The notes beneath the pieces are model-generated. The model ran no database searches and was not told where the DNA came from. It saw only the letters and a list, made by a program, of their open reading frames with translations. Below are positions 13,119 through 27,911 of a stretch of DNA of 64,000 nt, piece after piece (within the stretch, counting starts at the first letter, position 1; every line of letters begins with the position of its first letter). Position numbers and translations under genes: made by a program. This DNA is from Amycolatopsis azurea DSM 43854 (GTDB taxonomy: Bacteria > Actinomycetota > Actinomycetes > Mycobacteriales > Pseudonocardiaceae), in the NCBI RefSeq assembly GCF_001995215.1, contig NZ_MUXN01000027.1, positions 393,041-457,040 of the forward strand, in the 5' to 3' direction.

Positions 13119-13485
13119 CTAAGCGTGCAAAGAACTCCTGCTCGGCGGAACGGGATCGTCGGCCCGGAGTCGTCGCCAGGTTTCACGCCGCCGCCGTTGT
13201 GCCGCGGGGTCGGCGACCGGCGCGGCCGACAGCAGGCGGTGGGTGTAGGGATGCACCGGGTCGGTGAGCACCTCCTTCGTCGGTCCCTGCTCCACGACGT
13301 GGCCCCGGTGCATCACCGCGACCCGGTCGGCGAGCTGTTCGACGACGGCGAGGTCGTGGCTGATGAACAGGCAGGCGAACCCGAGTTCGCTCTGCAAGCT
13401 CCGCAGGAGCTCGAGGATCCGGGCTTGGATGGTGACGTCGAGCGCGCTGGTCGGCTCGTCGGCCACCAGCAGATCCGGATCCTCT
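13119..13485 (-). pseudogene. 3' fragment of an oligopeptide ABC transporter ATPase gene
   Basis: Only the last third of a DppF/OppF-type ATPase remains: [23 protein letters not shown] (Walker B and D-loop), the [19 protein letters not shown] switch region and the C-terminal [11 protein letters not shown] motif. Walker A and the signature are missing. The sequence is cut near 13485, next to the stop of the tetR gene, so a deletion removed the 5' part and any partner genes. A complete homologous ATPase is present at 30010-31656. Confidence 0.85.
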
Positions 13486-13507
13486 TTGGACGAACCCGGC
13501 GTTTCGC

Positions 13508-14134
13508 CTACGGACCGTACGCGCGCACGAACGTGTCGACGCCCGATTCCGCGATGGCGTCGAGCTCATCCTCCGGAAGAGTGCGCGTCCCCAGGCGGGA
13601 GCGTGACTCCAGCGGCCCGATCAGCAGTGCCAGGAAGTGCTCGGCGGCCCTGGCCGGATCACACGAACGAAGAGCGCCGGAGAGGACGAGGTGAGCGAAC
13701 CGGTCGGCCAGCGCCTCGATCAGGTGCGCCGACGTGCGTTCCTGCATCGCGACCGCCAGCTCCGGGAACGTGGCCAGTTCGGCGTGTGCCAGGGACCGGA
13801 GCGCGTGCGAACGCTCACCAGAGCAGATCCGCAGCAGCCGGGAAGCCGCGGTTCCGAGAGTCTCGCGGACGTCGGCCCCGGCGTCACGGAGCGGCTCGAT
13901 GGCGTCGAGCGAGTCAGCGGCGACGCCATCGGCGGCAGCCGCCATGGCGCCGCGGAACAGCGTCTCCTTGTCACCGAAATGGTTGTAGACGGTGGGTTTC
14001 GCGACCTTCGCCTCGTCCGCGATCTCCTGGACCGACGCCCGCGCGTAACCACGGCGCGCGAAGACCGTGAAGGCCACGTCCAAGATCTGTTGCCGCTTCG
14101 AAATCCGGTGTTGCACCTGAACCCGTCCGTTCAC
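13508..14134 (-). CDS. TetR-family transcriptional repressor
   Basis: This protein of about 208 aa has an N-terminal TetR helix-turn-helix ([44 protein letters not shown]) and a ligand-binding C-terminus typical of the AefR-like C-terminal domain. The GTG at 14134 lies inside the operator palindrome and lacks a ribosome site, suggesting leaderless translation, or use of a GTG six codons later. It is divergent from the Dabb gene and probably represses both. Its downstream neighbour is a truncated ATPase. Confidence 0.9.
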
Positions 14135-14163
14135 TACTTTGAACTCACGGGTTCAAAGTAGTG
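14132..14163. promoter_or_regulatory. TetR operator between tetR and the Dabb gene
   Basis: A perfect inverted repeat, CACTACTTTGAAC (14132-14144) and GTTCAAAGTAGTG (14151-14163), with a 6-base spacer, spans the start of the leftward tetR gene and ends 9 bases before the start of the rightward gene. Confidence 0.85.
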
Positions 14164-14172
14164 GAGGAAGTC

Positions 14173-14574
14173 TTGATCGTCCAGTTCATGCGCTTCGCGT
14201 TCCGCGAGGAGAGCACCGAGGAACAGAAGGCCCACGCCTTGGAGTTGATCCGCCGGACCGCGGCGGTGGAGTCGGTGGCGCATTCCACCGTCGGCAGGCT
14301 TCTCGGCGATCCGGCCGAGGGCTACACCCACGGCTATTCCTTCGGACTCGCCGACCTCGACGCGCTCGAGCGCTACATGTACGACCCGGTCCATCTGGCC
14401 GGAGACCCGGAGATCCTCCCGCACTACGCCAAGTTGCACGTCGGGGTCGCCGTCACCGACGACCCCGATCCGGATCTGGCCGCGAAGATCTCCGCCGTCT
14501 ACGAAGGCAAGCTCGCCCGGTATCCCGATTGGGAACGGCTGATGACGGCGATTCCCGAAGTCCGGTTCGGCTGA
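14173..14574 (+). CDS. Dabb (dimeric alpha-beta barrel) family protein
   Basis: This protein of about 133 aa has the stress-responsive A/B barrel pattern: IVQFMRFAF near the start, then a GYSFGLADLDALERYMYDPVH block that ends in the typical H-x-x-x-Y region. Dabb proteins are small dimeric barrels; some act as cyclases or monooxygenases, many have unknown roles. The TTG at 14173 is preferred because GGAGGAAG lies just before it; GTG 14161 is an alternative. It is controlled by the divergent TetR repressor. Confidence 0.78.
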   Translation: MIVQFMRFAFREESTEEQKAHALELIRRTAAVESVAHSTVGRLLGDPAEGYTHGYSFGLADLDALERYMYDPVHLAGDPEILPHYAKLHVGVAVTDDPDPDLAAKISAVYEGKLARYPDWERLMTAIPEVRFG

Positions 14575-14581
14575 CCGGCCG

Positions 14582-14938
14582 TCATCGCTCGCCGGCCGGA
14601 TCCAGGTCCGGACGTGAGGTGATCTCCACCGCGTTCGCTCGGATCCAGTCCAGCAGTGGGGTCAACGCCGCCGCGGCACCACGCCCCAGTTCGGTCACCG
14701 AGTACGTCACCGAAGGAGGTTGTTCCGTACCGACCTCACGACGCACCAAACCGTCCTGTCGCAGCGCCCGGAGCGTGGCCGTCAGGCTCTTGTCGCTGAT
14801 CCCAGCGACCACAGCCCGCAGTTCGTGGTAACGGTGTGGCCCGCGCAGCAAGGCGGTGAGCACGAGGATCGCCCACCTCCCCGCGAGATGTCCGAGCACC
14901 TCTCGCGCCGGGCACTCCTTGTGGAACACGTCACTCAC
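14582..14938 (-). CDS. HxlR-family winged-helix regulator
   Basis: This 118-aa protein matches HxlR: CPAREVLGHLAGRWAILVLTALL, then the RYHELRAVVAGISDKSLTATLRALRQDGLVRREV recognition segment. The cysteine near the N-terminus is the residue used for redox or electrophile sensing in several relatives. The GTG at 14938 follows GGGGGAGAAG. It is divergent from the short-chain dehydrogenase gene, its likely target. Confidence 0.9.
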   Translation of the reverse strand: MSDVFHKECPAREVLGHLAGRWAILVLTALLRGPHRYHELRAVVAGISDKSLTATLRALRQDGLVRREVGTEQPPSVTYSVTELGRGAAAALTPLLDWIRANAVEITSRPDLDPAGER

Positions 14939-14964
14939 CGCTTCTCCCCCGGTTTCCTGGACTG

Positions 14965-14988
14965 GGTGCTCACCTCCGGGTGAGCACC
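14965..14988. promoter_or_regulatory. Candidate HxlR operator
   Basis: The perfect inverted repeat GGTGCTCACC-TCCG-GGTGAGCACC lies 27 bases upstream of the hxlR-type start and 80 bases upstream of the divergent oxidoreductase. Confidence 0.65.
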
Positions 14989-15067
14989 GCACCGCGACGT
15001 GAGCGCCTTCCGCCCGAACCCGCGCTCTCCTTAGGTTAGTGACCTGCTCACGACCAAGGAGGAACCC

Positions 15068-15832
15068 GTGCCGACCACGACCATCGTCACCGGCGCCGCC
15101 CGCGGGCTGGGTGCGGCCATCGCCCGGCACCTGGGGGCACGAGGCCACCACGTGATCGTCAACTACCGCACCGACTCCGACGGCGCGGCCGGAGTCGTCG
15201 AGGACATCGAGGCGGCGGGCGGCGCGGCGTCGAGCGCCCGGGCCGACGTCACCGACCCCGCCGCGGTCGAAGCGCTGATTGCCGGCGTTCTGGCCCGACA
15301 CGGCCGGATCGACACCGTCGTCGTCAACGCGAACACCGCCCCGCCTCCCTTCGCCCCGCTGATCTCCCTGTCCTGGAACGATTTCGCCGCCAAGATGACC
15401 GGCGAACTCGCCGGCGCCTTCCACATCACCAAACGCGTTCTGGAGCCGATGCGGGCCCAAGGCGACGGCCGGCTCGTGTACATCGGCAGTACCGCGGCGG
15501 ATTACGTCGGTGAAGGCCGTCTAGCCCACGGCACCGCGAAATCCGCGCTGGCCACCTTCGCCCGTCACGTCGCCGCGGAGAGCGGGCGCGACGGCGTCTG
15601 CGCTCTGGTCGTCGCGCCCGGAGCGGTCCGGACGCCGGCGACGGCCGGGCTGCTGGACGGCGACCGCGGCGAAGTCCTTGCCAGGGAATCGGTACTGGGC
15701 AGGATCCTCGAACCCGAGGACGTCGCCGCCGCGGTGGCGCTGGCCGCCGATCCCGCGCTCCGCCCGGCCACCGGCACGGTGCTCCGCGTCGACGGCGGCT
15801 GGTCCGTACTCGTCGGCGGGCCGGCCAGCTGA
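15068..15832 (+). CDS. Short-chain dehydrogenase/reductase with altered catalytic tyrosine
   Basis: This 254-aa Rossmann-fold oxidoreductase resembles 3-oxoacyl-ACP reductases. The NAD(P)-binding TGAARGLG motif and the C-terminal VDGGW are present. At the active site the serine (YIGST) and lysine (GTAKSAL) are in place, but the position of the catalytic tyrosine, four residues before the lysine, is histidine (AHGTAK). The NNAG motif reads NANT. The substrate is unknown, and classical SDR chemistry may be reduced. The GTG start follows AAGGAGGAAC. It is probably regulated by the divergent HxlR protein. Confidence 0.88.
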   Translation: MPTTTIVTGAARGLGAAIARHLGARGHHVIVNYRTDSDGAAGVVEDIEAAGGAASSARADVTDPAAVEALIAGVLARHGRIDTVVVNANTAPPPFAPLISLSWNDFAAKMTGELAGAFHITKRVLEPMRAQGDGRLVYIGSTAADYVGEGRLAHGTAKSALATFARHVAAESGRDGVCALVVAPGAVRTPATAGLLDGDRGEVLARESVLGRILEPEDVAAAVALAADPALRPATGTVLRVDGGWSVLVGGPAS

Positions 15833-15841
15833 GATTCCTTG

Positions 15842-16597
15842 TCAGCTCTCGAAAAGCACCGCGGCGATCTCGTCTGCCGTGACTTTGGCCAGGTCCACGA
15901 AGAAGGGCAGCCGTTCGGGGATCATCAGAGCCGTCGTGCCGCGCAATCCGAGAGCGAACCGAGTACGGCCTTCCCCGTCGCGCAGCGGGATACCGATAGT
16001 GCGGAAACCGGCGGCCAGTTCCTCGTCGTTGAAGGCCCATCCGCGTTCGCGGGTCAGCGCGAGTTCCTTGGCCAGCCCGGCCGGATCCGTGGGCGCGCGT
16101 TCGGTACCTTCGGTGAACGGAAGTCGCGCCAGCTCGTCCTCCGACACATCGGACCACGCGAGCAGTGCCCTGCCCAGCGCACTGGCGTGGAGCGGGATCC
16201 GGAGCCCCTGGAGCTCGTGCCCGTCCGCCTCCCGCCAGCGGCTGGTGCCCAGCAGCACCATGTCGTTGCCGTGCCGGACCGCGATCGACGCGGACGCCCC
16301 GGTGGTGGTCGCGAGTTGTTCGAGGTGGGGCTCGACGAGGTAGATCCGGTGCTGCCGGTACGCGATCTGCCCGTACTCCGCGAGTGCGCCCCCGATCCGG
16401 TACCGGTTCGAAGTCGGGCTCTTCTCCAGGAAACCGGCACCGATGAGCGCCGTCACCAGACGATGCGTCGTGCTGGCCGGGAGCTCCACCCGGCGGGAGA
16501 GCTCGGTGATCCCCAGCTCGCCGCCACCACGAAAACACCCGAGAACCGCCAGTGCCCTCGCCACGGTCTGGACGCCGTCACCACCGTCTCGCGCCAT
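15842..16597 (-). CDS. IclR-family regulator of the sulfonate operon
   Basis: This 251-aa protein has an N-terminal winged helix (TVARALAVLGCFRGGGELGITELSRRVELPASTTHRLVTAL) and a C-terminal IclR effector domain with the RGWAFNDEELAAGFRTIGIPL signature. The ATG at 16597 is the point where homology begins; the open frame continues upstream without meaning. It is divergent from the sulfonate transport operon, with two matching palindromes between them, so it probably controls that operon in response to a substrate or intermediate. Confidence 0.93.
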   Translation of the reverse strand: MARDGGDGVQTVARALAVLGCFRGGGELGITELSRRVELPASTTHRLVTALIGAGFLEKSPTSNRYRIGGALAEYGQIAYRQHRIYLVEPHLEQLATTTGASASIAVRHGNDMVLLGTSRWREADGHELQGLRIPLHASALGRALLAWSDVSEDELARLPFTEGTERAPTDPAGLAKELALTRERGWAFNDEELAAGFRTIGIPLRDGEGRTRFALGLRGTTALMIPERLPFFVDLAKVTADEIAAVLFES

Positions 16598-16616
16598 GCG
16601 GACCAGCGTAACAGTA

Positions 16617-16693
16617 TTCCAAACAGTGGAAGGACTTTCGCCGTTCGCGCCATCTGTGCCAGAAGGGCCGGGCTGGTTTTCCATTCTGTGGAA
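16617..16693. promoter_or_regulatory. Twin IclR-type operators in the divergent promoter
   Basis: Two 15-base sites share the layout TTCCA-N5-TGGAA: TTCCAAACAGTGGAA (16617-16631), 19 bases upstream of the iclR start, and TTCCATTCTGTGGAA (16679-16693), 91 bases upstream of the binding-protein gene. The centre-to-centre distance is 62 bases, about six helical turns. Confidence 0.8.
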
Positions 16694-16784
16694 CGTCTGG
16701 ATCCCTTGAGGCGGCGTGGTTAGCGTTGCGCCCATCTCGACCGGGCCATCCGAACCGGGTCCCCACTCCCCAGGAGTCACCTCC

Positions 16785-17798
16785 ATGCCCCGCAGCCGGA
16801 ATTCCAGACTCACGCTCGCACTCGTCGCCCTCCTCGCGCTGATCACCGCGTGTGCCGGCGCAGGCCAGGACACCGGCGGCACCTTCACGCTCAAGGTCAC
16901 CGATCCCGGAAACGCCGGTCCGCTCGCGGTCGGCAAACGGGACGAGACGTTCGACAAGGCCTTGGCACCGCTGGGTGCCCGCATCGAATGGGTCCCCAGC
17001 ACACCGGGCTTCAGCTCGAACCTGAAACTGTTCAACACCAAGCAACTCGACGTCTCCGGTGGCGCGTACAGCCCGGTGATCGGCGCACTGTCCAAGGATG
17101 TCGGTGTCCGGATCATCGCCGTCGCCGACCCGGTCGGCAAGGACCAGAGCGGCATCCTGGCCTCGCCGAAGTCGGGTATCAAGTCGGTGCGCGACCTGGC
17201 GGGCAAGCGGATCGCGGTGAACCCGGCGGGGAAGGGCGAGTACATCACGCTGCTGGCACTGGCCCAGGCCGGTGTGCCCGTCGACCAGGTCGAACGGGTG
17301 CCGTTGCAGCAAGCCGACGCGACCTCGGCGTTCGCCACCGGCCAGGTCGACGCGTGGGCGTCGTTCAACGAGCCTTACCAAGAGGCGAAAGCGAACGGCG
17401 GCGTGGAGATCGCCACCGAGCAGAGCATCGGCTCGGTCGACAACACGATCGTCGCGTTCCGCACCGAGGTGCTGGACTCGCGGCCGGATGTCGCGGCCAA
17501 GTACCTGGAGACGTTGCAGCAGCTGACCCGGCAGCAACGGGACAACCCGGAGGACTTCGAGAACGTCTTCGAGAAGGCCGGTCCTCGCGCGCTGTCGGGC
17601 GATCGGCTGCGGCGTGCGCTGGCACTGGGCGGGCAGGCCACGGTTCCCCGGTACCCCGACGAAAAAGACCTGCGCGACCTCGAATCGGTCGCGAACCTGT
17701 TCTCGGCGAACAAGGTGACCACGCGGACTATCACCGCGGCGGACGTCGTCTACGACCTGCCAGCCAAGCTCACCGAGCACCAGAAGGCGGCGAAATGA
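16785..17798 (+). CDS. Aliphatic sulfonate-type ABC transporter substrate-binding lipoprotein
   Basis: This 337-aa protein begins with a signal peptide and lipobox LITAC and has the SsuA/NMT1-like two-lobed binding fold (PSTPGFSSNLKLFNTKQLDVSGGAYSP; SVRDLAGKRIAVNPAGKGEY; TGQVDAWASFNEPY). It captures a sulfonate, sulfinate or similar anion outside the cell. The ATG at 16785 has AGGAG eight bases upstream. It is first gene of an eight-gene operon; the permease gene overlaps its stop (ATGA). The ligand is inferred from the downstream enzymes. Confidence 0.9.
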   Translation: MPRSRNSRLTLALVALLALITACAGAGQDTGGTFTLKVTDPGNAGPLAVGKRDETFDKALAPLGARIEWVPSTPGFSSNLKLFNTKQLDVSGGAYSPVIGALSKDVGVRIIAVADPVGKDQSGILASPKSGIKSVRDLAGKRIAVNPAGKGEYITLLALAQAGVPVDQVERVPLQQADATSAFATGQVDAWASFNEPYQEAKANGGVEIATEQSIGSVDNTIVAFRTEVLDSRPDVAAKYLETLQQLTRQQRDNPEDFENVFEKAGPRALSGDRLRRALALGGQATVPRYPDEKDLRDLESVANLFSANKVTTRTITAADVVYDLPAKLTEHQKAAK

Positions 17799-18643
17799 GC
17801 ATCGTCACCACACCCGGACCGGTACGCACCGAGCCGCCGGGCCTCGTGCGGCCCGAATACCGAGGAAGCGGACGACGGCGGCGCTGGTCGTCGATTCCCT
17901 TGCGCATCGCCGTTCCGCTGCTGCTCGTCGCCCTGTGGTGGATCGGAACGGCCACAGGCGGGATCTCCGAACAGGTCCTGCCGGGGCCGCCGAAGGTGTG
18001 GAACGCGTTCGTCGAGCTGTTCCGGACCGGTCAGCTGGTGGACTTCACCCTCGCCTCCCTGCAACGCGCGGCGGCCGGAGTGTCGCTCGGTGTCGCGTTC
18101 GGACTCCTTTTCGGTGTCCTGGCCGGACTGTCCGCGCTCGGCGAGGAACTGATCGACGCGACCATGCAGATCAACCGCGCCATCCCGTTCCTCGCGCTCG
18201 TGCCGCTGTTCATCGCGTGGTTCGGCATCGACGAGACGTTCAAGGTGCTGCTGATCGCGGTCGCCACCGTCGCGCCGATGTACGCCTACACCTATCTCGG
18301 CGTCCGCAACGTCGACCGGAAGATGCTGGAGGCGGCGAGGAGTTTCGGGTTGCGCGGGCCGCGGCTGGTGTTCGGGACCATCCTTCCTTCGGCGCTTCCC
18401 GCGGTGCTGATGGCCCTGCGGATCTGCCTGTCGATCAGTGTCACCGGGCTCATCGCGGCCGAGCAGGTCGGCACCCGGGAAGGCATCGGCTACCTGGTCA
18501 GCCTGGCCCAGGAGTACAACCGCACCGACTACATGGTGCTGTGCGTGGTGCTCTACGCCGTCCTGGGCCTGGTGTTCGACGCGGCGGTCCGGGTGCTGGA
18601 GCGGTTCGCGATGCCGTGGCGGGCGGGGGTGGCGGCGCGATGA
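17795..18643 (+). CDS. ssuC: ABC transporter permease, SsuC-type
   Basis: This 282-aa integral membrane protein has about six helices and the permease EAA loop (MLEAARSFGLRGPRLVFGTILPSALP). It matches the SsuC/TauC/ThiX group that imports sulfonates and related anions. A basic N-terminus (GRRRRW) precedes the first helix. Its start overlaps the binding-protein stop and its stop overlaps the ATPase start (ATGA), so the three subunits are translationally coupled. Confidence 0.92.
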   Translation: MSIVTTPGPVRTEPPGLVRPEYRGSGRRRRWSSIPLRIAVPLLLVALWWIGTATGGISEQVLPGPPKVWNAFVELFRTGQLVDFTLASLQRAAAGVSLGVAFGLLFGVLAGLSALGEELIDATMQINRAIPFLALVPLFIAWFGIDETFKVLLIAVATVAPMYAYTYLGVRNVDRKMLEAARSFGLRGPRLVFGTILPSALPAVLMALRICLSISVTGLIAAEQVGTREGIGYLVSLAQEYNRTDYMVLCVVLYAVLGLVFDAAVRVLERFAMPWRAGVAAR

Positions 18644-19392
18644 CGGATACGACCACCGAACTCGCGGTGTCGCTTTCCGGCGTGAGCAAGAGCTTCGGCG
18701 AGAAGACCGTGCTGGACGGCGTCGATCTGGAGATCAGGCGGGGCGAGTTCGTCGTGCTGCTCGGCCCCAGCGGCACCGGCAAGACCACCCTGCTTCGGCT
18801 GCTGCTCGGGCTCGAACGGCCGGACACCGGGGAGATCCTGGTTCCCCGGCAACGGACCGTCGTCTACCAGGAACCACGGCTGATCCCCTCCAAACGCGTA
18901 CTGTCCAATGTGGTCATCGGCCAGCCGCACGGCAGGCAGACCAAGGACAACGGGCGCCGCGCGCTCGCCGAGGTGAACCTCGCGGACAAGCACCGTGCCT
19001 GGCCCGCCACGCTTTCCGGCGGTGAGGCGCAACGCGTCGCGCTCGCCAGGGCGCTGGTGCGCGAGCCGGAGCTGCTGTTGCTCGACGAGCCGTTCGCCGC
19101 GCTCGACGCGCTGACCCGGTTGCGCATGCAGGATCTGGTCGGCGACCTCGTGGCCCACCATCGGCCCGCGGTCCTGCTCGTGACCCACGACGTCGACGAG
19201 GCGATCCGGCTCGCCGACCGGGTGCTGGTACTCCACAAAGGACGGTTCGGGCACGACGTCGTCGTCGACCTGCCCCGGCCCCGTGACCGCACCGACCCCG
19301 CAGCACTCGACTACCGCGCCGCCTTCCTCGCCGAGCTCGGCGTCGGCGGCGTCCCGATCCCCTCGGAGGACACCCATGACCATCACGACTGA
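18640..19392 (+). CDS. ssuB: ABC transporter ATP-binding protein, SsuB-type
   Basis: This 250-aa ATPase has Walker A GPSGTGKTT, Q-loop VVYQEPRL, signature LSGGEAQR, Walker B LLLLDEP and the switch histidine in VTHDVDEA. It energises the SsuC-type permease at the inner face of the membrane. The C-terminus carries an extra histidine-rich tail (THDHHD) created where the frame overlaps the next gene by 17 bases. Coupled on both sides within the operon. Confidence 0.93.
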   Translation: MTDTTTELAVSLSGVSKSFGEKTVLDGVDLEIRRGEFVVLLGPSGTGKTTLLRLLLGLERPDTGEILVPRQRTVVYQEPRLIPSKRVLSNVVIGQPHGRQTKDNGRRALAEVNLADKHRAWPATLSGGEAQRVALARALVREPELLLLDEPFAALDALTRLRMQDLVGDLVAHHRPAVLLVTHDVDEAIRLADRVLVLHKGRFGHDVVVDLPRPRDRTDPAALDYRAAFLAELGVGGVPIPSEDTHDHHD

Positions 19393-20410
19393 GCAGACCA
19401 TCGACCAGCTCTGGTACACCCGCTGCCCGGTACCCACGGCCAGCGGTCTCGCCCACAGCCTCGGCTGGCTCGCCGACAACGCGGGCGACCACGGCCTTCC
19501 CCTGGCGATCCTTCAGGACGCCGCACCCGAAATCGCCGTCCACCACTACGACCACCGGTTACGCGGGCTGATCCGCGAAGGCGGCAACGTACCCGCCATC
19601 GCCGCCCGCGCCCAGGGCTCGCCCACCCGGCTCATCGGGCTGACCTGGATCGACGAGGCACAGGCCATCCTCGTCGCGGGCGACTCCCCTATCACGGACG
19701 CCGCCGGTCTCGCCGGCGCGCGGATCGGCATCCCGGCGTGGGCCGCGGATCAGGCCCGCAGCTTCCCGAGGGCGATGGCGCTGCACGGGTTCTCGAACGC
19801 CCTGCGCCTGGCGGGCCGCACCCTCGCCGACGTCACGGTGACCGAGGTCGACGTGAACCGTGACCCCCAGGTACGTGGCCGAGCCACCCGCGGCACCACC
19901 TGGGGTGTGGCCGAGTTGCTGGCCGGTGACGTCGACGCGATCTACGTGAAGGGCGCCCGGGCGGCCGAAGTGGCACGGGAACAGGGGCTGCGGGTCGCGG
20001 TCGATCTCGACACCGCCACCACCCGCCGGGGCCGGGTCAACAACGGCACGCCCCGCCCCATCACCGTGCACGCCGACCTCCTGGAGCACCGGCCCGAGTC
20101 GGTGGTCGGCTTCCTCGCGGCGAGCCTGCGTGCCGCGGACTGGGCCGCCGGCCACCTCGACGAGGTCCGCGCCGTGCTCGCCCGCGAGACGTTCTCCGGA
20201 CCGGAGGGCGTCGTCGCTGCCTACGGCGAGGAATTCCATCGCACCCTGCACCCGGAGCTGTCCGCCGAGCGGATCGAACTGCTCGGGGTACAGAAGCAGT
20301 TCCTCTACACACACGGTTTCCTCGCCGCGGACTTCGATCTCGGCTCGTGGGTGGCGCACGAACCCCTGGAGCAGGCGAAGGCACTGGTCGCACAGGAGCG
20401 GGCGGCATGA
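19376..20410 (+). CDS. DszB-like sulfinate desulfinase
   Basis: This 344-aa protein resembles 2-(2'-hydroxyphenyl)benzenesulfinate desulfinase (DszB), a member of the SsuA-like fold turned into an enzyme. The catalytic set of DszB has counterparts: Cys17 in RCPVP (Cys27), His56 in VHHYD (His60) and Arg67 in REGG (Arg70 in RFGG). No signal peptide is present, so it acts in the cytoplasm, probably releasing sulfite from a sulfinate made by the neighbouring monooxygenases. The ATG at 19376 has GGAGGA five bases upstream. It is 21 residues shorter than DszB. The substrate is not known. Confidence 0.82.
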   Translation: MTITTEQTIDQLWYTRCPVPTASGLAHSLGWLADNAGDHGLPLAILQDAAPEIAVHHYDHRLRGLIREGGNVPAIAARAQGSPTRLIGLTWIDEAQAILVAGDSPITDAAGLAGARIGIPAWAADQARSFPRAMALHGFSNALRLAGRTLADVTVTEVDVNRDPQVRGRATRGTTWGVAELLAGDVDAIYVKGARAAEVAREQGLRVAVDLDTATTRRGRVNNGTPRPITVHADLLEHRPESVVGFLAASLRAADWAAGHLDEVRAVLARETFSGPEGVVAAYGEEFHRTLHPELSAERIELLGVQKQFLYTHGFLAADFDLGSWVAHEPLEQAKALVAQERAA

Positions 20411-21447
20411 CCCGGTTCCTGTGGGAGCTGCCCGCCCGCGGCGACGGCCGCCGCGCGGATCCGAACCTGTGGCAGCGTGCCGGCTTCGACCATCTGCACC
20501 AAGTGATCGACGCGGCCGAACTGTCCGGTTTGGACGGTATGGTCGCCCCATACGACCCGCGCGGCGAGGAGTCGTGGATCGTGGCGGGCGGCGCGCTGCG
20601 CCACACCCGGCACAGCCGGGTGACCGTGGAGTTCACACCGTCCTTCGCCACCCCGGTGTACGCGGCGAAGATGTCGTTGACGTTGCAGCGCCTCGGCGCA
20701 AACAGGCTCGACTGGCTGGTGCGGGTCGACACCGATCCCGAGGACGACCGGCAACGCGGTGACCGCCTCGGCCGCGCCGAGCGGTACGAACGCGCCGCCG
20801 AGTTCCTCACCGTCGCCCGTGGTGCCTGGACCGGGCGCGGCGCCTCGCCCGGCGGGTTCGACGGCGGGGAGTTCGACCACGACGGCACGTACTACCACGT
20901 ACGGTCGGGCGGCTTCGACGAAGCGGCAGACGGCCGTCCGTTCCCGGTGGTGCACCTTTCCGGGACGTCACCGGAGGCGATCGCCCTGTCGGCAGCCCAC
21001 GGAGACGTGCACCTCTTCCCCGCGTCCACATCGGACCTCGCGCCGAGCGTCCGCGCGCTCCACACCGACGCCGGGAGCCATGGCCGGACGGTACGGGCCG
21101 GACTGGTGCTGCCGATCATCGCCAGGGAGGACGAGCACGAGGCCTGGGCCCGAGTGCTGCGCCTGTGGCGCGAGATCGACCCGGCCGCCACCGAACACGA
21201 CGTCCGCTCCCGCGCGCTGGACGGGACGAGGTTCGACGGCTTCGACCGGATCGGGTATCGCACCCCGATCGGGCTGGTCGGCAGCTACCGGCAGGTGGCG
21301 GAGCAACTGGCCGAGTACGAGGGTGCCGGCATCACCACGTTCGTCCTCAGTGGACACCCCAGTATCGAAGAGATCCACCGGGCGGGCGAGCACGTCCTCC
21401 ATCTCGCCGCCCCGGCCGGCCGGACACCGACAGGAGCAAGCGCATGA
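20407..21447 (+). CDS. LLM-class FMN monooxygenase, SsuD-like
   Basis: This 346-aa luciferase-like TIM barrel uses reduced flavin supplied by a separate reductase. Its N-terminus (FLWELPARGDGRR) and middle (FTPSFATPVYAAKMSLTLQRLGANRLDWLV) resemble alkanesulfonate monooxygenase SsuD, but it is shorter and lacks the long C-terminal tail. The start overlaps the desulfinase stop (ATGA). With the next gene it provides a pair of non-identical monooxygenases, possibly acting on successive oxidation states of sulfur or different substrates. No flavin reductase gene is in the operon. Confidence 0.88.
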   Translation: MTRFLWELPARGDGRRADPNLWQRAGFDHLHQVIDAAELSGLDGMVAPYDPRGEESWIVAGGALRHTRHSRVTVEFTPSFATPVYAAKMSLTLQRLGANRLDWLVRVDTDPEDDRQRGDRLGRAERYERAAEFLTVARGAWTGRGASPGGFDGGEFDHDGTYYHVRSGGFDEAADGRPFPVVHLSGTSPEAIALSAAHGDVHLFPASTSDLAPSVRALHTDAGSHGRTVRAGLVLPIIAREDEHEAWARVLRLWREIDPAATEHDVRSRALDGTRFDGFDRIGYRTPIGLVGSYRQVAEQLAEYEGAGITTFVLSGHPSIEEIHRAGEHVLHLAAPAGRTPTGASA

Positions 21448-22613
21448 CCGTGGACGTCTACTGGCGCATCGGCATGGGCGGCGACCACGCCTCGCTGCGC
21501 ACTCCGAAGATCCGCAACCGCGGCGACTGGGGCGGACTCGGCCCGGGCAACATCGCACCGGCCCTGCGCGACGGCGAGCCCGACGGATACGCCTACATCG
21601 ACCACGCCGCGGCGGTGGCCAAGGCGTCGGAAGCGGCCGGATTCCTCGGCGGGCTGCTGCCCTCCTTCCCCGGCACGGAAGACCCGTGGGCGTTGTCGGC
21701 CGCGCTCGCCAAGGAGACCAGCACCTACCGCTTCATGGTCGCGTTCCAGCCGGGTTTCCTGCATCCGCTGCAGGCGGCACGCATGTCGGCGAGCCTGCAA
21801 CGCGCCACCGGCGGCCGCCTCGTCTACAACATCATCTCCGGTGGCGGCGGGCCCGCCCAGCTGTGGTGGGGCGACAAGGTCGACCACGACGATCGCTACG
21901 CCCGTACGTCGGAGTTCCTCCACGTCCTCAAAGGAGTGTGGCGGGGAGAGCCGTACGACTTCGACGGCCGGTTCTTCTCCGCTCGGGGCGCCTCGCTGCC
22001 TGAGCACCTCGTCGGCGAACCCTTCCCGGAGATCTACTTCTCCGGCTCGTCGGCGGCGGCCGTGAACGCGGCAGGTCTGCACTCCGACTACTACCTGTCG
22101 TGGCTGGAGCCGTTCGCCGACCTCGAGCGGAAGTTCGACGGCGTCCGGGCGCACGCCGCGAAACTCGGCCGCACCCCGAAGTTCGCGGTGCGCATCGACA
22201 TCCTCGCCCGGCACACCGAGGAAGCCGCGTGGGCCGAGATCGAGAAGGGCTGGCGCCACGTCGACCCGGAGATCGCGAACCGGCAGGCTCAAGGCGACTC
22301 CGTCGGCGCGGGCCGAATCAAGGGCTGGGTGCCGTCCACCATCACCGGTTACCGCGACGTCGAGGTCCAGCCGAACGTCTGGGCCGGGTTCTCGTTGCTG
22401 CGCGGCGGCCCGGCGTTCGGGCTCGTCGGCAGCTACGCGCAGGTCGCCGAGCGCCTCGACCAACTGCTCGACCTCGGCGTCGACGCGTTCATCCTCGCCG
22501 GCAACCCGCATCTGGAGGAGGCCTACCGGGTAGGCGAAGAGGTCCTCCCCCTGCTCGGCCGTTCCCGCTTCACCCGGCCCACCACCCTGCGCGCACCCGC
22601 GTCCGTCGCCTGA
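21444..22613 (+). CDS. ssuD: Alkanesulfonate monooxygenase-like enzyme
   Basis: This 389-aa LLM flavoenzyme has SsuD landmarks: FQPGFLHPLQAARMSASLQRATGGRLVYN, YFSGSSAAAV, and near the C-terminus QPNVWAGFSLLRGG and FILAGNPHLEEAYRVGEEVLPLL. SsuD cleaves the carbon-sulfur bond of alkanesulfonates with FMNH2 and oxygen, giving an aldehyde and sulfite. An aldehyde product would fit the aldolase encoded next. The start overlaps the previous stop. FMNH2 must come from elsewhere in the genome. Confidence 0.88.
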   Translation: MTVDVYWRIGMGGDHASLRTPKIRNRGDWGGLGPGNIAPALRDGEPDGYAYIDHAAAVAKASEAAGFLGGLLPSFPGTEDPWALSAALAKETSTYRFMVAFQPGFLHPLQAARMSASLQRATGGRLVYNIISGGGGPAQLWWGDKVDHDDRYARTSEFLHVLKGVWRGEPYDFDGRFFSARGASLPEHLVGEPFPEIYFSGSSAAAVNAAGLHSDYYLSWLEPFADLERKFDGVRAHAAKLGRTPKFAVRIDILARHTEEAAWAEIEKGWRHVDPEIANRQAQGDSVGAGRIKGWVPSTITGYRDVEVQPNVWAGFSLLRGGPAFGLVGSYAQVAERLDQLLDLGVDAFILAGNPHLEEAYRVGEEVLPLLGRSRFTRPTTLRAPASVA

Positions 22614-22625
22614 TCAGGAGGACCG

Positions 22626-23333
22626 TTGACCAGCACACTCGATTCGAACATCACCGAATTCGTCGAGAACGCCCGCAGGGACGCCGAAAAGGCGTTCCGG
22701 GTGTTCCGGGAGACCGGCACCACCTCGGCGAACGGCACCGTGAACTTCGTGGAGCGGGTGCCCGGCGAGGAGATCGCCGTCGCCCTCAACGAACCCGGCC
22801 CCTGGGCCGACGACCGCGAAGTGGAACCCGTCGTCGCCACGTTCGACGGCACCGTGCTGTCCGGGACCGGACGCGCCGGCTTCATCGGCGGCTACAGCAA
22901 GGTCTTCCGCGAACATCCGGAGATCACCACGGTGGTGCACGTCCACACGCCGTGGCTCGGCGGATGGGCACAGACCCACCGCACCCTGCCGATCCGCTAC
23001 GCCGCGTCCCAACGACTCACCCTGTCGCGCGAGATCCCGCCGCATATCGACCGCAGCCGGCCGGCGAGCGAATTCATCCTGGAACGACTGCGGGAGGACC
23101 CGCATCTGGTCGCGATCTTCGAGGCCAACGGCGGCATCAACGTCCTCGGCCGCGACGGCCTGCTGGAAACCGCGAAGTTCATCGTGCTGCTCGAAGAGGG
23201 CGCGCAGTTCCAGGCGATCGCCGAAGGACTGGGCGGGTCGGTCGAGTTCGACCCGACCAACCTGGTCGCGCAGTGGAGCCGAAGCGGACTCGTCGACGAG
23301 GCACGCCGCCTCGGCCTGATCCCCGAACACTGA
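22626..23333 (+). CDS. Class II aldolase/adducin family protein
   Basis: This 235-aa protein belongs to the zinc-dependent class II aldolase/epimerase fold, with the metal-binding HVHTPW motif, an upstream NEPGPWADD loop and a third-histidine region near RSRPASEF that is not canonical. Relatives cleave sugar phosphates or small hydroxy acids. In this operon it may process a carbonyl or hydroxy-acid product of desulfonation. The TTG start is supported by AGGAGG seven bases upstream. Its reaction is inferred from context only. Confidence 0.82.
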   Translation: MTSTLDSNITEFVENARRDAEKAFRVFRETGTTSANGTVNFVERVPGEEIAVALNEPGPWADDREVEPVVATFDGTVLSGTGRAGFIGGYSKVFREHPEITTVVHVHTPWLGGWAQTHRTLPIRYAASQRLTLSREIPPHIDRSRPASEFILERLREDPHLVAIFEANGGINVLGRDGLLETAKFIVLLEEGAQFQAIAEGLGGSVEFDPTNLVAQWSRSGLVDEARRLGLIPEH

Positions 23334-23345
23334 GGAGCACACACC

Positions 23346-24281
23346 ATGACCGTTCGAGTCGGTTACTTCCCCCACAACAACTCGCTGTTCGTCCTCCGCC
23401 ACCGCGGCATCCTGGAACGCCGGCTGCCCGGCGTCGAATGGGTCGACCTGCGCACCCTGCCCGCGAAACCGCCGGTCGACCCGAAGACCGCGCTGCCGAC
23501 CCTGCACTCGGACTGGCTGTTCGAACCGGGCGGGTACGACTTCATCGGCACCGGCTTCACCCCGCCCGTGACCGGCCTCGCCCACGGCCGTGATCTCGTC
23601 TACGTCGGTATCTCCGGTCCACGGGTGGAAAACGGCAGGCTGGTGGTCAAGCCGGAATCACCCATCCGGTCCGTCGCCGACCTCCGGGGCCGCCGCGTAG
23701 GCATCGCACACGGTTCCTGGCAGACCACGCTCCTGCTGTTCGCCCTGGAACGAGCCGGACTGTCCTGGTCCGACATCGAACCGGTCGACACCTCGGTGCA
23801 CGACGGGCCGTCCGCGTTCCGCTCCGGCGACCTCGACGCCTGGGTCGGGGCTTACCCGGCTTTGGCCGCGGTCGAACAGGAGGGTCCCGTCCGGACCCTG
23901 ATCGAGACCGAAGGTCTGTTCAGCCATCCCTCACTGTGGTTCACCCGCCGCGACTTCGCCGAGAACCATCGCGACGAACTCACCGAAATCGTCCGCTCGC
24001 TGCAAGAGTCCGACGCGTGGATCACGGCCAACCCCAGAGAAGCCGCCCGCTACTTCGCCGAAGACGCGGGAACGACCTCGACGGCGGACCTGGACCGCTG
24101 GGAGCACGCCCTGCGCGGCCGTCCGTTCGGACTCAACCCGGTGACCGAAGAATTCCTCGCCGAACAACACCACGCGGCGGAACTGCTGGCAGCCAACGGA
24201 CTCCTGCCCCGATCGGTCGATCCGCGGTCCGCGGTCCTGCCCTGGCTCAACGATCTGCTGACTCCGCACGCGGCCCGGTAA
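23346..24281 (+). CDS. Cytosolic SsuA/DszB-like protein of unknown activity
   Basis: This 311-aa protein has the periplasmic-binding/desulfinase fold (VRVGYFPHNNSLF; SVADLRGRRVGIAHGSWQT; FRSGDLDAWVGAYPA) but no signal peptide. The DszB catalytic Cys-Pro-Val-Pro and Arg-x-Gly-Gly motifs are absent. It may be a second desulfinase-like enzyme with another mechanism, a cytosolic carrier or a sensor. It is last gene of the operon, with an ATG 12 bases after the aldolase stop preceded by GAGGAG. Confidence 0.78.
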   Translation: MTVRVGYFPHNNSLFVLRHRGILERRLPGVEWVDLRTLPAKPPVDPKTALPTLHSDWLFEPGGYDFIGTGFTPPVTGLAHGRDLVYVGISGPRVENGRLVVKPESPIRSVADLRGRRVGIAHGSWQTTLLLFALERAGLSWSDIEPVDTSVHDGPSAFRSGDLDAWVGAYPALAAVEQEGPVRTLIETEGLFSHPSLWFTRRDFAENHRDELTEIVRSLQESDAWITANPREAARYFAEDAGTTSTADLDRWEHALRGRPFGLNPVTEEFLAEQHHAAELLAANGLLPRSVDPRSAVLPWLNDLLTPHAAR

Positions 24282-24721
24282 CCCTGCCGCGGTCGACCCG
24301 CGCCGGCTGCCGGAGACCCTGGCGGCCGGCGCGGCAGACGCTCCTCCCCGGCGAGCGAGGCGGCGACCGCCTCGGCCGCGCGCAGCAACACGATCCCGTG
24401 CTGTTCACCAACTACTTCCGCGACGATCCGACCACAGTGGACTAGGGTACGAGAGATCGCCGCCACGGCTATCGCCGACGCTGTAGTAGCCGCGCTGGCC
24501 GCGCATCGGCACCGGCTCGCCATCCACGGCGGGCGGATCAGCGAGCCAAGCAGCTCGACGGCGCGGCGCCCGGGCTCAGCGAAAGAGGCTGGACACGGTG
24601 CCGCGACCGCGAGCACCGTCCGAGTCCGGCCGCGCCTGCCGCTCGTCCTTTCTGGACTGCTTTCATTGCTGCAACTGTGTGGTCACCCAGCGGGCAGCTT
24701 ATGCTTCCTCGCTTGCGGAGG
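24282..24721. other. Gene-free stretch between sulfonate operon and IS remnant
   Basis: About 440 bases with no supported gene. A frame ending VLFTNYFRDDPTTVD at 24445 looks like the tail of a lost gene but I cannot place it. The recurrent palindrome word occurs as CCACAGTGGAC at 24432-24442. Confidence 0.4.
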
Positions 24722-24776
24722 TTGAGCTTCCCCCTGTTCGCCGGACACGGTGTCCGGACAACAGGGGGAAGCTCAA
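24722..24776. repeat. 55-bp palindrome, probably two abutted IS ends
   Basis: Left arm TTGAGCTTCCCCCTGTT-cg-CCGGACAC (24722-24748) and right arm GTGTCCGG-ac-AACAGGGGGAAGCTCAA (24750-24776) pair around one central base; only two base pairs fail. The 27-base arms look like terminal inverted repeats head to head, or a tiny hairpin element. It interrupts the 5' end of the transposase gene that follows. Confidence 0.65.
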
Positions 24777-25526
24777 TGAGCGGACTGGTGCGCCGTGGCG
24801 TGACCTTCCTGAACAGTATGGGTCCTGGAAGACCGCGCATGAACGGTTGCGGAAGTGGACCGCGGACGGGACCTGGGACCGGATCCTGGAGCACGTGATC
24901 GTCAAAGACGACTCACTCGGGACACTGGAAGACAACGTCGAGTTCGTGGTCAGTGTCGATTCCACGAGCGTCCGGGCGCATCAGCACGCCGCGGGCGCTC
25001 GGAAAAAGGGGGCTGCGCGGACTGGATCGAAGACCTCGCCATCGACGGCGAATGCCTCGGACGATCACGCGGAGGACTGACCACCAAGCTCCACCTGGCC
25101 GTCGACGCCGCGGGCCTGCCGCTGGCGGTGATCCTCACCCCCGGCCAGGCCGGGGGCAACCCGCAACTGCTGCCACTGCTCGACGAGATCCGCGAGATCG
25201 ACGTGGACGGGCAGAGGGTGCGGGTGGGGCGGGTGCTGGCAGACAAGGCCTACACCCACCCCAGCACCCGCAAGGCGTTACGGGAACGGGGAATCAAGGC
25301 CACCATCCCCGAACGCGCCGACCAGATCGCCCGCCGCACAGCCAAAGGCAGCGCGGGCGGCAGGCCACCGGCATTCGATCCCGACCTCTACAAACCCCGC
25401 AACGTCGTCGAGCGATGCTTCAACCGCCTCAAACAGTTCCGGGGCCTGGCCACCAGATACGCCAAACGAGCCGCCTACCACCGCGCCGAGATCATCCTCG
25501 CCTGCATCATCCTCCACCTCAGATGA
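24777..25526 (+). pseudogene. IS5-family (IS427-like) transposase, 5' truncated
   Basis: The first frame gives TGAPWRDLPEQYGSWKTAHERLRKWTADGTWDRIL and the first catalytic aspartate region SVDSTSVRAH. The second, -1 frame continues GGLTTKLHLAVDAAG, VLADKAYTHPSTRKALRERGI and the final ERCFNRLKQFRGLATRY block with the catalytic glutamate. The N-terminal part of about 40 residues is missing, replaced by the 55-bp palindrome. Two overlapping frames are normal in this group. The element cannot move by itself in this form. Confidence 0.85.
25004..25013 (+). other. A5G5 slippery site in transposase gene
   Basis: AAAAAGGGGG lies exactly where the reading must shift by -1 to continue the transposase. 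IS427-type elements use programmed -1 frameshifting at such runs, so this is probably native and not a mutation. Confidence 0.6.
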
Positions 25527-25916: not shown

Positions 25917-26354
25917 CGTGACGGCTTTGATGCGACCGTCGACCTCATCAAAGCAGTGCTGGCGCCGTCCGCCGCAGCGGACGCGGCCGATGCGGACGGT
26001 CCCCGTCTACTCCATGGCCAAAGCGAGCGTCAACAACCTGACCCCTCGCGATGGAACTGGGACCCCTCGGGCTCACAGGGAACGCCATCGCGCCCGGCTG
26101 AACACGGACCGACATGAACGCCGCCGTCCGCGAGAATCTCGAACTGGTCGCGGAAATCGAGACGAGCGGCTACAAACTCTGACGGCATCCGAGGGTGCCC
26201 ACCGTTTGGACACCCGCGGTACGTGATTGACAGCATCGGCGCCTGTGCCGTTCGGTAGAAGAACATTTACTTTGCAGTGCAAGCATTCATCCATTCGAAC
26301 CAACGGCGCCCAGCAGAAATCACGAAGTGGTGCCGGCGAAAGGATCCTTCCCCG
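25917..26354. other. Eroded intergenic region
   Basis: About 440 bases without a clear gene. A 22-codon frame at 26114-26182 (MNAAVRENLELVAEIETSGYKL) resembles the start of a lost gene. The cupin promoter probably lies in the less GC-rich part near 26250-26310. Confidence 0.4.
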
Positions 26355-26783
26355 ATGACCGACCTCTGGCACCAGCCGCTACGACACATCCGGGGCGCCG
26401 ACCTGACCGGCGACACCAACCAGACGAGCGGGATGCGGCGGCTGGAAGCGATCTCCGGCAAGACCGTCGGATCACAGAAGGTCTGGATGGGTGAAACGCA
26501 CGTCGCGCCGGTGACCAACTCCGGTGACCACCACCACGGTGAGGCCGAGACCGCGATCTACGTCAAGTCGGGGCATCCGGTGTTCGTCTTCGCCGACGGT
26601 GACAAGGAAGTCCGGCTGGAGACCGGTCCAGGGGACTACATCTTCGTCCCACCCTACGTGCCACACCGCGAAGAGAATCCCACGGACGAAGAGGCTGTCG
26701 TCATCATCTCGCGCAGCAGCCAGGAAGGCATCGTGGTCAACCTGCCGAGCCTCTGGTCCCCAGTCGACGTTCCTGAGGACTGA
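26355..26783 (+). CDS. Cupin-domain protein
   Basis: This 142-aa single cupin has both metal-binding motifs: DHHHGEAETAIYV (motif 1, two or three histidines and a glutamate) and PPYVPHREENP (motif 2, histidine). Relatives are dioxygenases, isomerases or sugar-binding proteins, and no substrate can be assigned. The ATG at 26355 is preceded by GAAAGGATCC. The LLM oxidoreductase gene starts 3 bases after its stop, so the two form an operon. Confidence 0.85.
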   Translation: MTDLWHQPLRHIRGADLTGDTNQTSGMRRLEAISGKTVGSQKVWMGETHVAPVTNSGDHHHGEAETAIYVKSGHPVFVFADGDKEVRLETGPGDYIFVPPYVPHREENPTDEEAVVIISRSSQEGIVVNLPSLWSPVDVPED

Positions 26784-26786
26784 CTC

Positions 26787-27911
26787 GTGGCGACGACCGG
26801 CCCCGCAATCCCGCTGTCCGTACTCGACCTCGTACCGATCAGTTCCGGATCCGACACGGCGGAGGCCTTGCGCAACACCGTCGAGCTCGCCCGGGCGGCC
26901 GAACGCTTCGGCTACCACCGCTACTGGTTCGCCGAGCATCACCTTAATCCCGGCGTCGCGGGCGCGTCACCGCCGGTCTTGATCGCCCTCGTGGCCGGTG
27001 CCACCACCCGGATCCGATTGGGGTCCGCAGGGGTCCAGCTGGCGCATCGCACTCCACTGGCGGTCGTCGAGGAGTTCGGCCTCATCGACGCACTCCACCC
27101 CGGGCGGCTCGACCTCGGGCTCGGCCGCAGCGGAAAGCAACTCGTCCGCGAGTACGCCGAGACAGCCGGGTCTGCTCCGCCCGCCCAGCCGGCCAACGGT
27201 TTGCTGATCCCGGACCGGCCGGACTTCAGCGGCCTGGCCCGCTCGGCGCGGATCGGCTTGACCTTCGGGCTCCTTCAACAGCCGGGCGCCGAGTCACCCG
27301 ACTACAGCGAACAGGTCGGCGACATCCTCTCGCTGCTCGGCGGCACTTACCGATCGGCCGAAGGGCTGGAGGCGCATGCCGTACCCGGCGAAGGCTCAAG
27401 CCTCGAGATCTGGGTCCTCGGCAGCAGCGGTGGCCAGAGTGCGGCAGTGGCAGGCCGCAACTCCTTGCGCTTCGCCGCGAACTACCACGTCAGTCCTTCT
27501 GGCGTCCTCGAAGCTGTCGAGGCTTACCGGCGGGCGTTCCGGCCGTCGGCGGCGTTGCCCCGGCCGTATGTGGCCGTCTCGGCCGACGCCGTCGTCGCCG
27601 AAGACGACGCCACGGCTCGTGAACTGGCCAGTGGCTATGGGCTCTGGGTGCGCAGCATCCGCCGAGCGGAGGGCGCGATCCGCTTTCCCACCTCTGAAGA
27701 AGCCGCGGCTCACCAGTGGAGCGACGAGGACCGCGCCCTCGTCGCCGACCGTGTCGACACCCAGTTCGTCGGATCCCCCGCGACGGTGGCGGCGGGCCTG
27801 CGGCAGCTGCGGGACGCGACCGGCGCCGACGAACTCGTCGTCACCACCGTCACACACGACCACGCCGACCGTGTGCGGTCCTACGAACTCCTTGCCGAGC
27901 ACTGGCGATAG
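26787..27911 (+). CDS. LLM-class flavin-dependent oxidoreductase
   Basis: This 374-aa luciferase-family protein has the standard N-terminal barrel (LSVLDLVP, RYWFAEHH, TTRIRLGSAGVQLAHRTPLAVVEEFGLIDALHPGRLDLGLGRSG) and a C-terminal FVGSPATVAAGLRQL segment. It is of the MsnO8-like group, which uses FMN and oxygen or F420; the substrate is unknown. The GTG start is 3 bases after the cupin stop. Its last 31 bases overlap the convergent peptidase gene. It is one of several LLM genes in the island. Confidence 0.88.
   Translation: MATTGPAIPLSVLDLVPISSGSDTAEALRNTVELARAAERFGYHRYWFAEHHLNPGVAGASPPVLIALVAGATTRIRLGSAGVQLAHRTPLAVVEEFGLIDALHPGRLDLGLGRSGKQLVREYAETAGSAPPAQPANGLLIPDRPDFSGLARSARIGLTFGLLQQPGAESPDYSEQVGDILSLLGGTYRSAEGLEAHAVPGEGSSLEIWVLGSSGGQSAAVAGRNSLRFAANYHVSPSGVLEAVEAYRRAFRPSAALPRPYVAVSADAVVAEDDATARELASGYGLWVRSIRRAEGAIRFPTSEEAAAHQWSDEDRALVADRVDTQFVGSPATVAAGLRQLRDATGADELVVTTVTHDHADRVRSYELLAEHWR

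Follow-up and report, generated by a model that had tools for sequence, protein, structure and literature searches.

A probable sulfur-scavenging operon of the bds type in Amycolatopsis azurea DSM 43854

Results and Discussion

Analysis of 64,000 nucleotides of the 9.2 Mb genome of Amycolatopsis azurea DSM 43854 (contig NZ_MUXN01000027.1, positions 393,041 to 457,040; this whole stretch is termed the window) revealed an operon of eight plus-strand genes (16785–24281) and, facing away from it on the minus strand, a gene for an IclR-family regulator. The operon encodes an SsuABC-type importer, a DszB-like protein (P0005), two SsuD-family proteins (LLM1 and LLM2), a class II aldolase-fold protein and a second, SsuA-like substrate-binding protein (SBP2). 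We consider it likely that this is a bds-type operon for sulfur starvation, scavenging sulfur as sulfite from organosulfur anions. When sulfate runs short, it probably draws sulfur from organic sulfones, sulfinates or sulfonates, and the most likely route is C–S cleavage dependent on flavin mononucleotide (FMN), together with desulfination to sulfite. The gene set matches, by gene order, one already reported in 2013 (bds).

The genes are closely packed, with successive overlaps of 4, 4, 17, 4 and 4 bases followed by two 12-base gaps, and their description as one operon in a preliminary description of the window is confirmed. A species-genome collection was scanned with an alignment of 15 DszB-like proteins, giving 373 relatives; the 80 best were retained for locus comparison. 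The core order (substrate-binding protein (SBP), permease, ATPase, DszB, LLM1, LLM2, SBP2) is the same in 78 of these 80, and the two exceptions (L052 and L059) are loci truncated by contig ends. Pfam/NCBIfam classes could be assigned to the eight operon proteins, the two SsuD-family members being luciferase-like, yet none passes an NCBIfam cut-off. The preliminary description had read the genes as a sulfonate/sulfinate operon; that reading, with sulfones added, is supported together with the SsuABC-type import and the DszB-type desulfinase, whereas novelty, carbon use and a pair of FMN monooxygenases are not.

Sulfur sparing and the desulfinase

The eight operon proteins, pooled, contain 0.72% Cys+Met against 2.35% in a baseline of 176 open reading frames of the same genome, taken from 20 stretches of 20 kb and picked by codon-position composition; in 20,000 random draws of eight, no set was as low. 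The aldolase-like protein and SBP2 of the window have no Cys at all and no Met past the start. Zero Cys+Met also characterizes 62 of 64 aldolase-like relatives, 77 of 79 SBP2 and 56 of 79 LLM1, and exactly one Cys is present in 74 of 79 DszB-like relatives, while depletion in LLM2 is milder (mean Cys+Met 1.18% in relatives). This near-absence of sulfur residues is the expected look of a set made in sulfur starvation and speaks against catabolism of carbon by cells replete with sulfate. Whole proteins of 235–346 residues that have shed almost all Cys and Met in dozens of species make a clean case of sulfur-sparing selection.

Judged by its residues, P0005 is a DszB-type sulfinate desulfinase with an intact catalytic set. 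It has the DszB fold, is nearer DszB than SsuA (28–29% identity to DszB), and carries the Cys/His/Arg counterparts that had been noted earlier: Cys17, His57 and Arg67, corresponding to DszB Cys27, His60 and Arg70, are invariant in 81/81 sequences. This bears on an alternative in which LLM2 carries out plain alkanesulfonate use and both the DszB-like and the cytosolic SsuA-like proteins are binding proteins, not enzymes. The binding-protein folds, the SsuABC-type import and the Trp/Arg/Arg motif kept in LLM2 would suit it, but with an invariant catalytic trio, and a single Cys so widely kept amid a gene set purged of sulfur residues, we judge it improbable.

DszB-like proteins also occur in other settings. 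On Sinorhizobium meliloti pSymA (L133, 7001–14439) two of them accompany an acyl-CoA-dehydrogenase-family gene and an NtaA/DmoA-type monooxygenase, possibly a 4S-like set; a benzothiophene-desulfurizing Sinorhizobium, KT55, is mentioned in the available part of PMC3868597. One of three DszB-like proteins in a Burkholderia arboris cluster (L138, 7001–8074) reads RSPVP in place of RCPVP, so that the catalytic Cys is replaced by Ser. In two Gordonia genomes (L130 and L131) an SsuD-family gene is immediately followed by a distant DszB-like gene (33–35%), and the two make up a small desulfurization pair of their own.

Two unequal SsuD-family proteins

LLM1 and LLM2 were aligned with E. coli SsuD in 80 sequences, namely the window and 79 relatives (L052 was excluded by the length/stop filter). 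LLM2 retains the equivalents of Trp196, Arg226 and Arg297 (SsuD numbering) and all five FMN-phosphate-site residues checked in 80/80; one row, L057, deviates at several positions. Its fourth motif position is Pro in 79/80, not Ala or Ser, and its score of 269 bits lies below the NCBIfam equivalog cut-off of 518 for SsuD/MsuD. Cys54 and Tyr331 have roles in SsuD. Loss of the SsuD residues His228, Tyr331 and Cys54 in LLM2 was considered as a loss of function; this reading was dropped because the available part of PMC8234197 places H10 and H227 in the second shell and describes the Trp/Arg/Arg trio, all kept here, as essential. The alanine mutants of MsuD Trp195, Arg225 and Arg296 each gave no measurable sulfite (PMC8234197, same part).

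LLM1 has a different residue pattern. The sulfonate-site Trp is missing in 80/80, Arg226 is kept in 14/80, and the Arg297 equivalent is Gly in 72/80, although this column is alignment-dependent. The FMN-phosphate His is replaced by Gly in 70/80 and the oxygen-pocket Asn by Arg or Gln in 73/80, so that only LLM2 keeps both sets of residues and the earlier assignment of two distinct FMN monooxygenases is not supported. LLM1 may still bind flavin, as the FMN-site residues Arg127 (77/80) and Tyr128 (76/80) are kept. LLM1 is the lowest-identity operon protein in 71/80 loci; in eight distant loci identity is lower still for the exported binding protein, and the L052 value comes from a contig-cut gene. 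By analogy with LuxAB, in which the luciferase beta subunit is a non-catalytic partner, we infer that LLM1 may be a non-catalytic partner of LLM2. Streptomyces and Burkholderia clusters have a single SsuD-family gene in the stretch read, nearer LLM2 (38% and 46%).

Aldolase-fold protein and unexported binding protein

The seventh protein reaches the Pfam threshold for the class II aldolase fold and keeps the HxH motif. Glu73 and the three-His site of FucA are metal/catalytic residues; here the equivalent of Glu73 is Phe86 and that of His155 is Gly169 in 65/65 sequences, and the family has an invariant set of its own (H118, E166, N168, E190 and E191). The pairing of a DszB-like protein with a class II aldolase, for which the preliminary description had proposed a neighbourhood search, is present in 64 of the 79 operons that reach this point; the same aldolase-like family also occurs near DszB-like proteins on three proteobacterial replicons. 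Among the 15 operons without the aldolase-like gene, LLM2 and SBP2 are separated by at most 58 bases in 11 and by 207 in one, and an IclR gene lies between them in three. When the aldolase-like protein was searched for in 396 genomes from the phylum (E 1e-25), the window copy was the sole match. On a plasmid of Sphingobium sp. TomTYG65 (L139, 12500–19343), three DszB-like genes, one without the His as judged by eye, are found with an aldolase-like gene and an NtaA/DszA-like monooxygenase, adjoining SsuABC genes.

The aldolase-like gene had suggested that the carbon skeleton is used as well as the sulfur: the monooxygenase would free an aldehyde or ketone, a class II aldolase would cleave it, and the skeleton would enter central metabolism. 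The frequency of the gene in the operons, its recurrence beside DszB-like genes in Proteobacteria and control by an IclR regulator are consistent with such a pathway. Use of the carbon skeleton is nonetheless unsupported, because the proteins are poor in Cys and Met, the gene is missing in 15/79 operons and two FucA residues are lost; furthermore, Gordonia terrae C-6 took sulfur from benzothiophene, which did not serve as sole carbon source (PMC3868597, available part). Carbon use by the operon is therefore unlikely, and combined carbon-and-sulfur catabolism as an account of the whole gene set very improbable.

SBP2 matches SsuA (SsuA 2x26, E 7.1e-32), but its N-termini, inspected by eye in the window and in 14 of 79 relatives, look like those of mature proteins and lack an SsuA-type export signal. 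This suggests that SBP2 stays unexported and may hold substrate or an intermediate in the cytosol.

Proposed route

A route is proposed in which the substrate enters via the SsuABC-type importer, and LLM2, supplied with FMNH2 by a reductase encoded elsewhere and perhaps assisted by LLM1, oxygenates the carbon next to sulfur. This attack would convert a sulfonate to sulfite or a sulfone to a sulfinate, and the DszB-type protein would hydrolyse the sulfinate to sulfite. SBP2 could retain substrate or intermediate, the aldolase-fold protein might act on an optional carbon remnant or conjugate, and IclR would add substrate-specific control. Flavin_Reduct gave seven matches in the genome and none in the operon; other SsuE-type reductase families were not searched.

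A bolder and, in our view, unlikely proposal is that these parts form a previously undescribed three-part desulfurization module: LLM1 and LLM2 as a LuxAB-like unequal flavin monooxygenase with LLM1 as its non-catalytic half, SBP2 as a protein that channels substrate, and the aldolase-fold protein as an enzyme class of its own, new and with its metal site rebuilt. In both Actinomycetota and Proteobacteria this enzyme would act in series with desulfinases of the DszB type, for example by C–C cleavage that releases a sulfinate usable by the desulfinase.

A conserved candidate operator

Perfect TTCCA-N5-TGGAA palindromes stand at 16617 and 16679 in the divergent promoter and nowhere else in the window; the two are probably IclR operators. 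An IclR relative at 55% identity or above is present in 64/80 loci. In the 56 relatives whose IclR gene is adjacent and divergent, the palindrome is perfect in 11 and has at most one mismatch in 46 (including those 11); the other 10 lack a copy at that tolerance. This count omits 8 of 64 relatives with an opposite-strand IclR relative, in which the gene is too distant or the distance negative (L035, L047, L050, L052, L071, L073, L074 and L075). Background was counted for perfect copies, of which there are none elsewhere in the 56 loci (1.14 Mb), and for the looser TTCC-N7-GGAA, which occurs 137 times in 1.64 Mb, promoters counted in. Scans for sigma-70 promoters and terminators gave nothing exceeding shuffled sequence.

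Relation to the bds cluster

The preliminary description stated that no described pathway has this gene set, but two reported sets fit by gene order: GTC6_01585 to 01620 of G. terrae C-6 and peg4799–4806 of Rhodococcus qingshengii IGTS8. According to the available parts of PMC3868597, the C-6 genes encode a binding protein (GTC6_01620), a permease (01615), an ATPase (01610), the desulfinase BdsA (01605), the FMN monooxygenase BdsB (01600), the alkanesulfonate monooxygenase BdsC (01595), a hypothetical protein (01590) and a binding protein (01585), and all eight rose 92- to 188-fold by RNA-seq on benzothiophene relative to sulfate. In IGTS8, peg4799, 4801, 4802, 4804 and 4806 (SsuA, SsuB, DszB-like, SsuD and SsuA) were raised on dibenzothiophene (PMC8557817, available part), and an R. 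qingshengii genome in our set (L029) carries the operon in an order that agrees with the IGTS8 numbers.

A dedicated benzothiophene pathway, as proposed for C-6, would have BdsB oxidize the sulfide to the sulfone, BdsC open the ring and BdsA carry out the desulfination. The shared order of gene classes and the rise on benzothiophene speak for it, as does o-hydroxystyrene formation by an E. coli bdsABC extract with flavin reductase, although that product was identified from one gas chromatography–mass spectrometry peak, absent in the control extract (PMC3868597, available parts). C-6 also desulfurizes benzothiophene and not dibenzothiophene, and has a desulfinase gene in only one of its clusters (PMC3707597). 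Against this pathway, LLM1, which occupies the BdsB position, lacks the sulfonate-site and several FMN residues, and no DszC-type enzyme of the acyl-CoA-dehydrogenase fold was found in the operon with Pfam. Because an importer is present and the operon is spread in soil actinobacteria, a polar natural substrate also appears more plausible, and a pathway dedicated to benzothiophene has a low probability.

Several points weigh against the preferred reading as a bds-type sulfur-starvation operon. IclR regulators more often govern carbon catabolism, the permease does not share the sulfur depletion (2.85% Cys+Met in the window), and the substrates named above are predicted ones. Nothing beyond gene order and annotation ties the operon to C-6: none of 59 Gordonia genomes matches the C-6 forward primer with one mismatch or fewer, and against 131 loci the best matches have 6 mismatches (forward) and 4 (reverse). 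In the available parts of PMC3868597, the authors restrict the operon to bdsABC and describe the remaining induced genes as dispersed; a number of unrelated sulfur clusters showed an equally strong rise, so that the induction is unspecific for benzothiophene; the authors themselves state that sulfate limitation alone could account for much of the rise. They assign S-oxidation to BdsB, a role made doubtful by the LLM1-family residues described above. No published test of the aldolase-like or the SsuA-like protein was found in the open-access literature.

Sequence proof of C-6 identity was attempted by primer comparison and by protein search and failed on both. Four Gordonia loci show at least 6 mismatches to the primers, and reverse-primer matches near base 7753 fall, in L029, within the gene for the binding protein, away from the LLM2 end where they were expected. 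Translated in all frames, the forward primer fits the end of an ATPase that overlaps a start reading Met-Thr; this is in keeping with the layout of the operon without being proof. Among the best 120 of 1829 matches to a Gordonia DszB-like protein, none was named as a C-6 protein. As no comparison gave a close match, the link stays at gene order. The distant Gordonia DszB-like genes (33–35%) differ from C-6 in having the LLM gene before the desulfinase gene, not after it. PMC9861168, as far as its available part goes, merely cites C-6.

Distribution and surroundings

The distribution is patchy, with the operon in 9/397 genomes of the order and 54/401 of a second family. In Gordonia, 5/59 genomes carry a match at about 70% identity and two more at 33–35%. 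Of the genomes listed, the 12 others from the genus gave no match, although the operon is present in two named Amycolatopsis genomes. The closest named operon is that of Amycolatopsis thailandensis (92–99% identity per protein). DNA identity to A. tucumanensis spans 15841–24275, that is the IclR gene and the operon, plus 224 bases elsewhere; that to A. thailandensis spans 15825–24321 and, at the left, 13339–14577. On the right flank, similarity stops just past the operon in both.

The roughly 1.25 kb between the two A. thailandensis segments (14578–15824), which holds most of a short-chain dehydrogenase gene (15068–15832), is missing in that genome (L009), where the flanks are nearly contiguous. 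Directly 3′ of the operon, an IS4/IS5-type transposase is split between two frames (24598–25526; DUF4096, DDE_Tnp_1). At 26277–27911, a small cupin gene precedes a luciferase-like gene of the MsnO8 family that scores above its NCBIfam cut-off; the two may form a separate flavin-linked pair. Coordinates of the operon and its regulatory region are collected in Table 1.

Table 1. Genes and probable operator sites of the locus, in window coordinates.
Feature	Position	Strand	Remarks
IclR-family regulator	15842..16597	-	Pfam HTH_IclR + IclR_C; ATG at 16597; divergent from operon
Probable IclR operator 1, TTCCA-N5-TGGAA	16617..16631	.	one of two perfect copies in the 64 kb window
Probable IclR operator 2, TTCCA-N5-TGGAA	16679..16693	.	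other perfect copy in the 64 kb window
Lipoprotein SBP, NMT1/SsuA family	16785..17798	+	Pfam NMT1; SsuA_fam 118 bits, below cut-off; lipobox-like LITAC
ABC permease, SsuC-like	17795..18643	+	SsuC model 200 bits, below equivalog cut-off
ABC ATPase, SsuB-like	18640..19392	+	aliphatic sulfonate ATPase model 235 bits, below equivalog cut-off
DszB-type sulfinate desulfinase (P0005), by residues	19376..20410	+	Cys17/His57/Arg67; export signal not seen
LLM1, SsuD-family protein	20407..21447	+	sulfonate-binding and several FMN residues lost
LLM2, SsuD-like FMN monooxygenase	21444..22613	+	Trp/Arg/Arg sulfonate motif intact
Class II aldolase/adducin-fold protein	22626..23333	+	TTG start; HxH kept, FucA Glu73 and His155 equivalents lost
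SBP2 (P0009), SsuA-like periplasmic-binding-fold protein	23346..24281	+	no export signal; no Cys/Met beyond start

Significance and comparison with known systems

The analysis joins an overlooked gene set of 2013 to a widespread actinobacterial operon, with 373 DszB-like relatives in one scan. New here are the conserved IclR-type operator, the SsuD-family protein with a lost sulfonate site and the aldolase-like family beside DszB-like genes on three proteobacterial replicons. Published enzyme roles are placed in doubt, as the family at the BdsB position lacks the sulfonate site, and no characterisation of the aldolase-fold partner was found in the open-access literature: the word "aldolase" is absent from the main texts of PMC3868597 and PMC8557817, and the open-access literature, as far as its available parts go, yielded no class II aldolase with a desulfinase, only a class II aldolase paper on sulfoquinovose without one. 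Interest centres on three operon proteins, namely degenerate LLM1, the aldolase-fold protein with its rebuilt site and unexported SBP2, and the questions about the first two bear on fuel desulfurization and sulfonate pollutants. The available parts of the literature on per- and polyfluoroalkyl substances gave no link to the operon.

Among the closest known systems, the bds cluster of G. terrae C-6 shares the gene order, its eight genes being numbered consecutively and annotated to the same classes, and in both cases this is a sulfur-source gene set with a desulfinase and two SsuD-family genes; neither a degenerate LLM1 nor an IclR operator is discussed in the available parts of the C-6 paper. 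The listed numbers of IGTS8 peg4799–4806 likewise fit the window by gene order, not sequence, and the role given there is limited to sulfur acquisition or transport (PMC8557817, available part). With the class II aldolase/adducin superfamily (FucA and AraD; the Fe enzymes POD, NovR and TqaM) the seventh protein has the fold and HxH in common, whereas FucA Glu73 and the third His are absent and it has an invariant set of its own. The operon shares an SsuABC-type importer and an SsuD-like enzyme with ssuEADCB, but has no flavin reductase and adds a desulfinase, a degenerate paralogue, an unexported binding protein and an aldolase-fold protein. A DszB-type desulfinase and FMN-dependent C–S cleavage would be common to it and the 4S pathway (DszABC), from which it differs in having no DszC, an SsuD-like protein in place of DszA, and an importer and extra genes.

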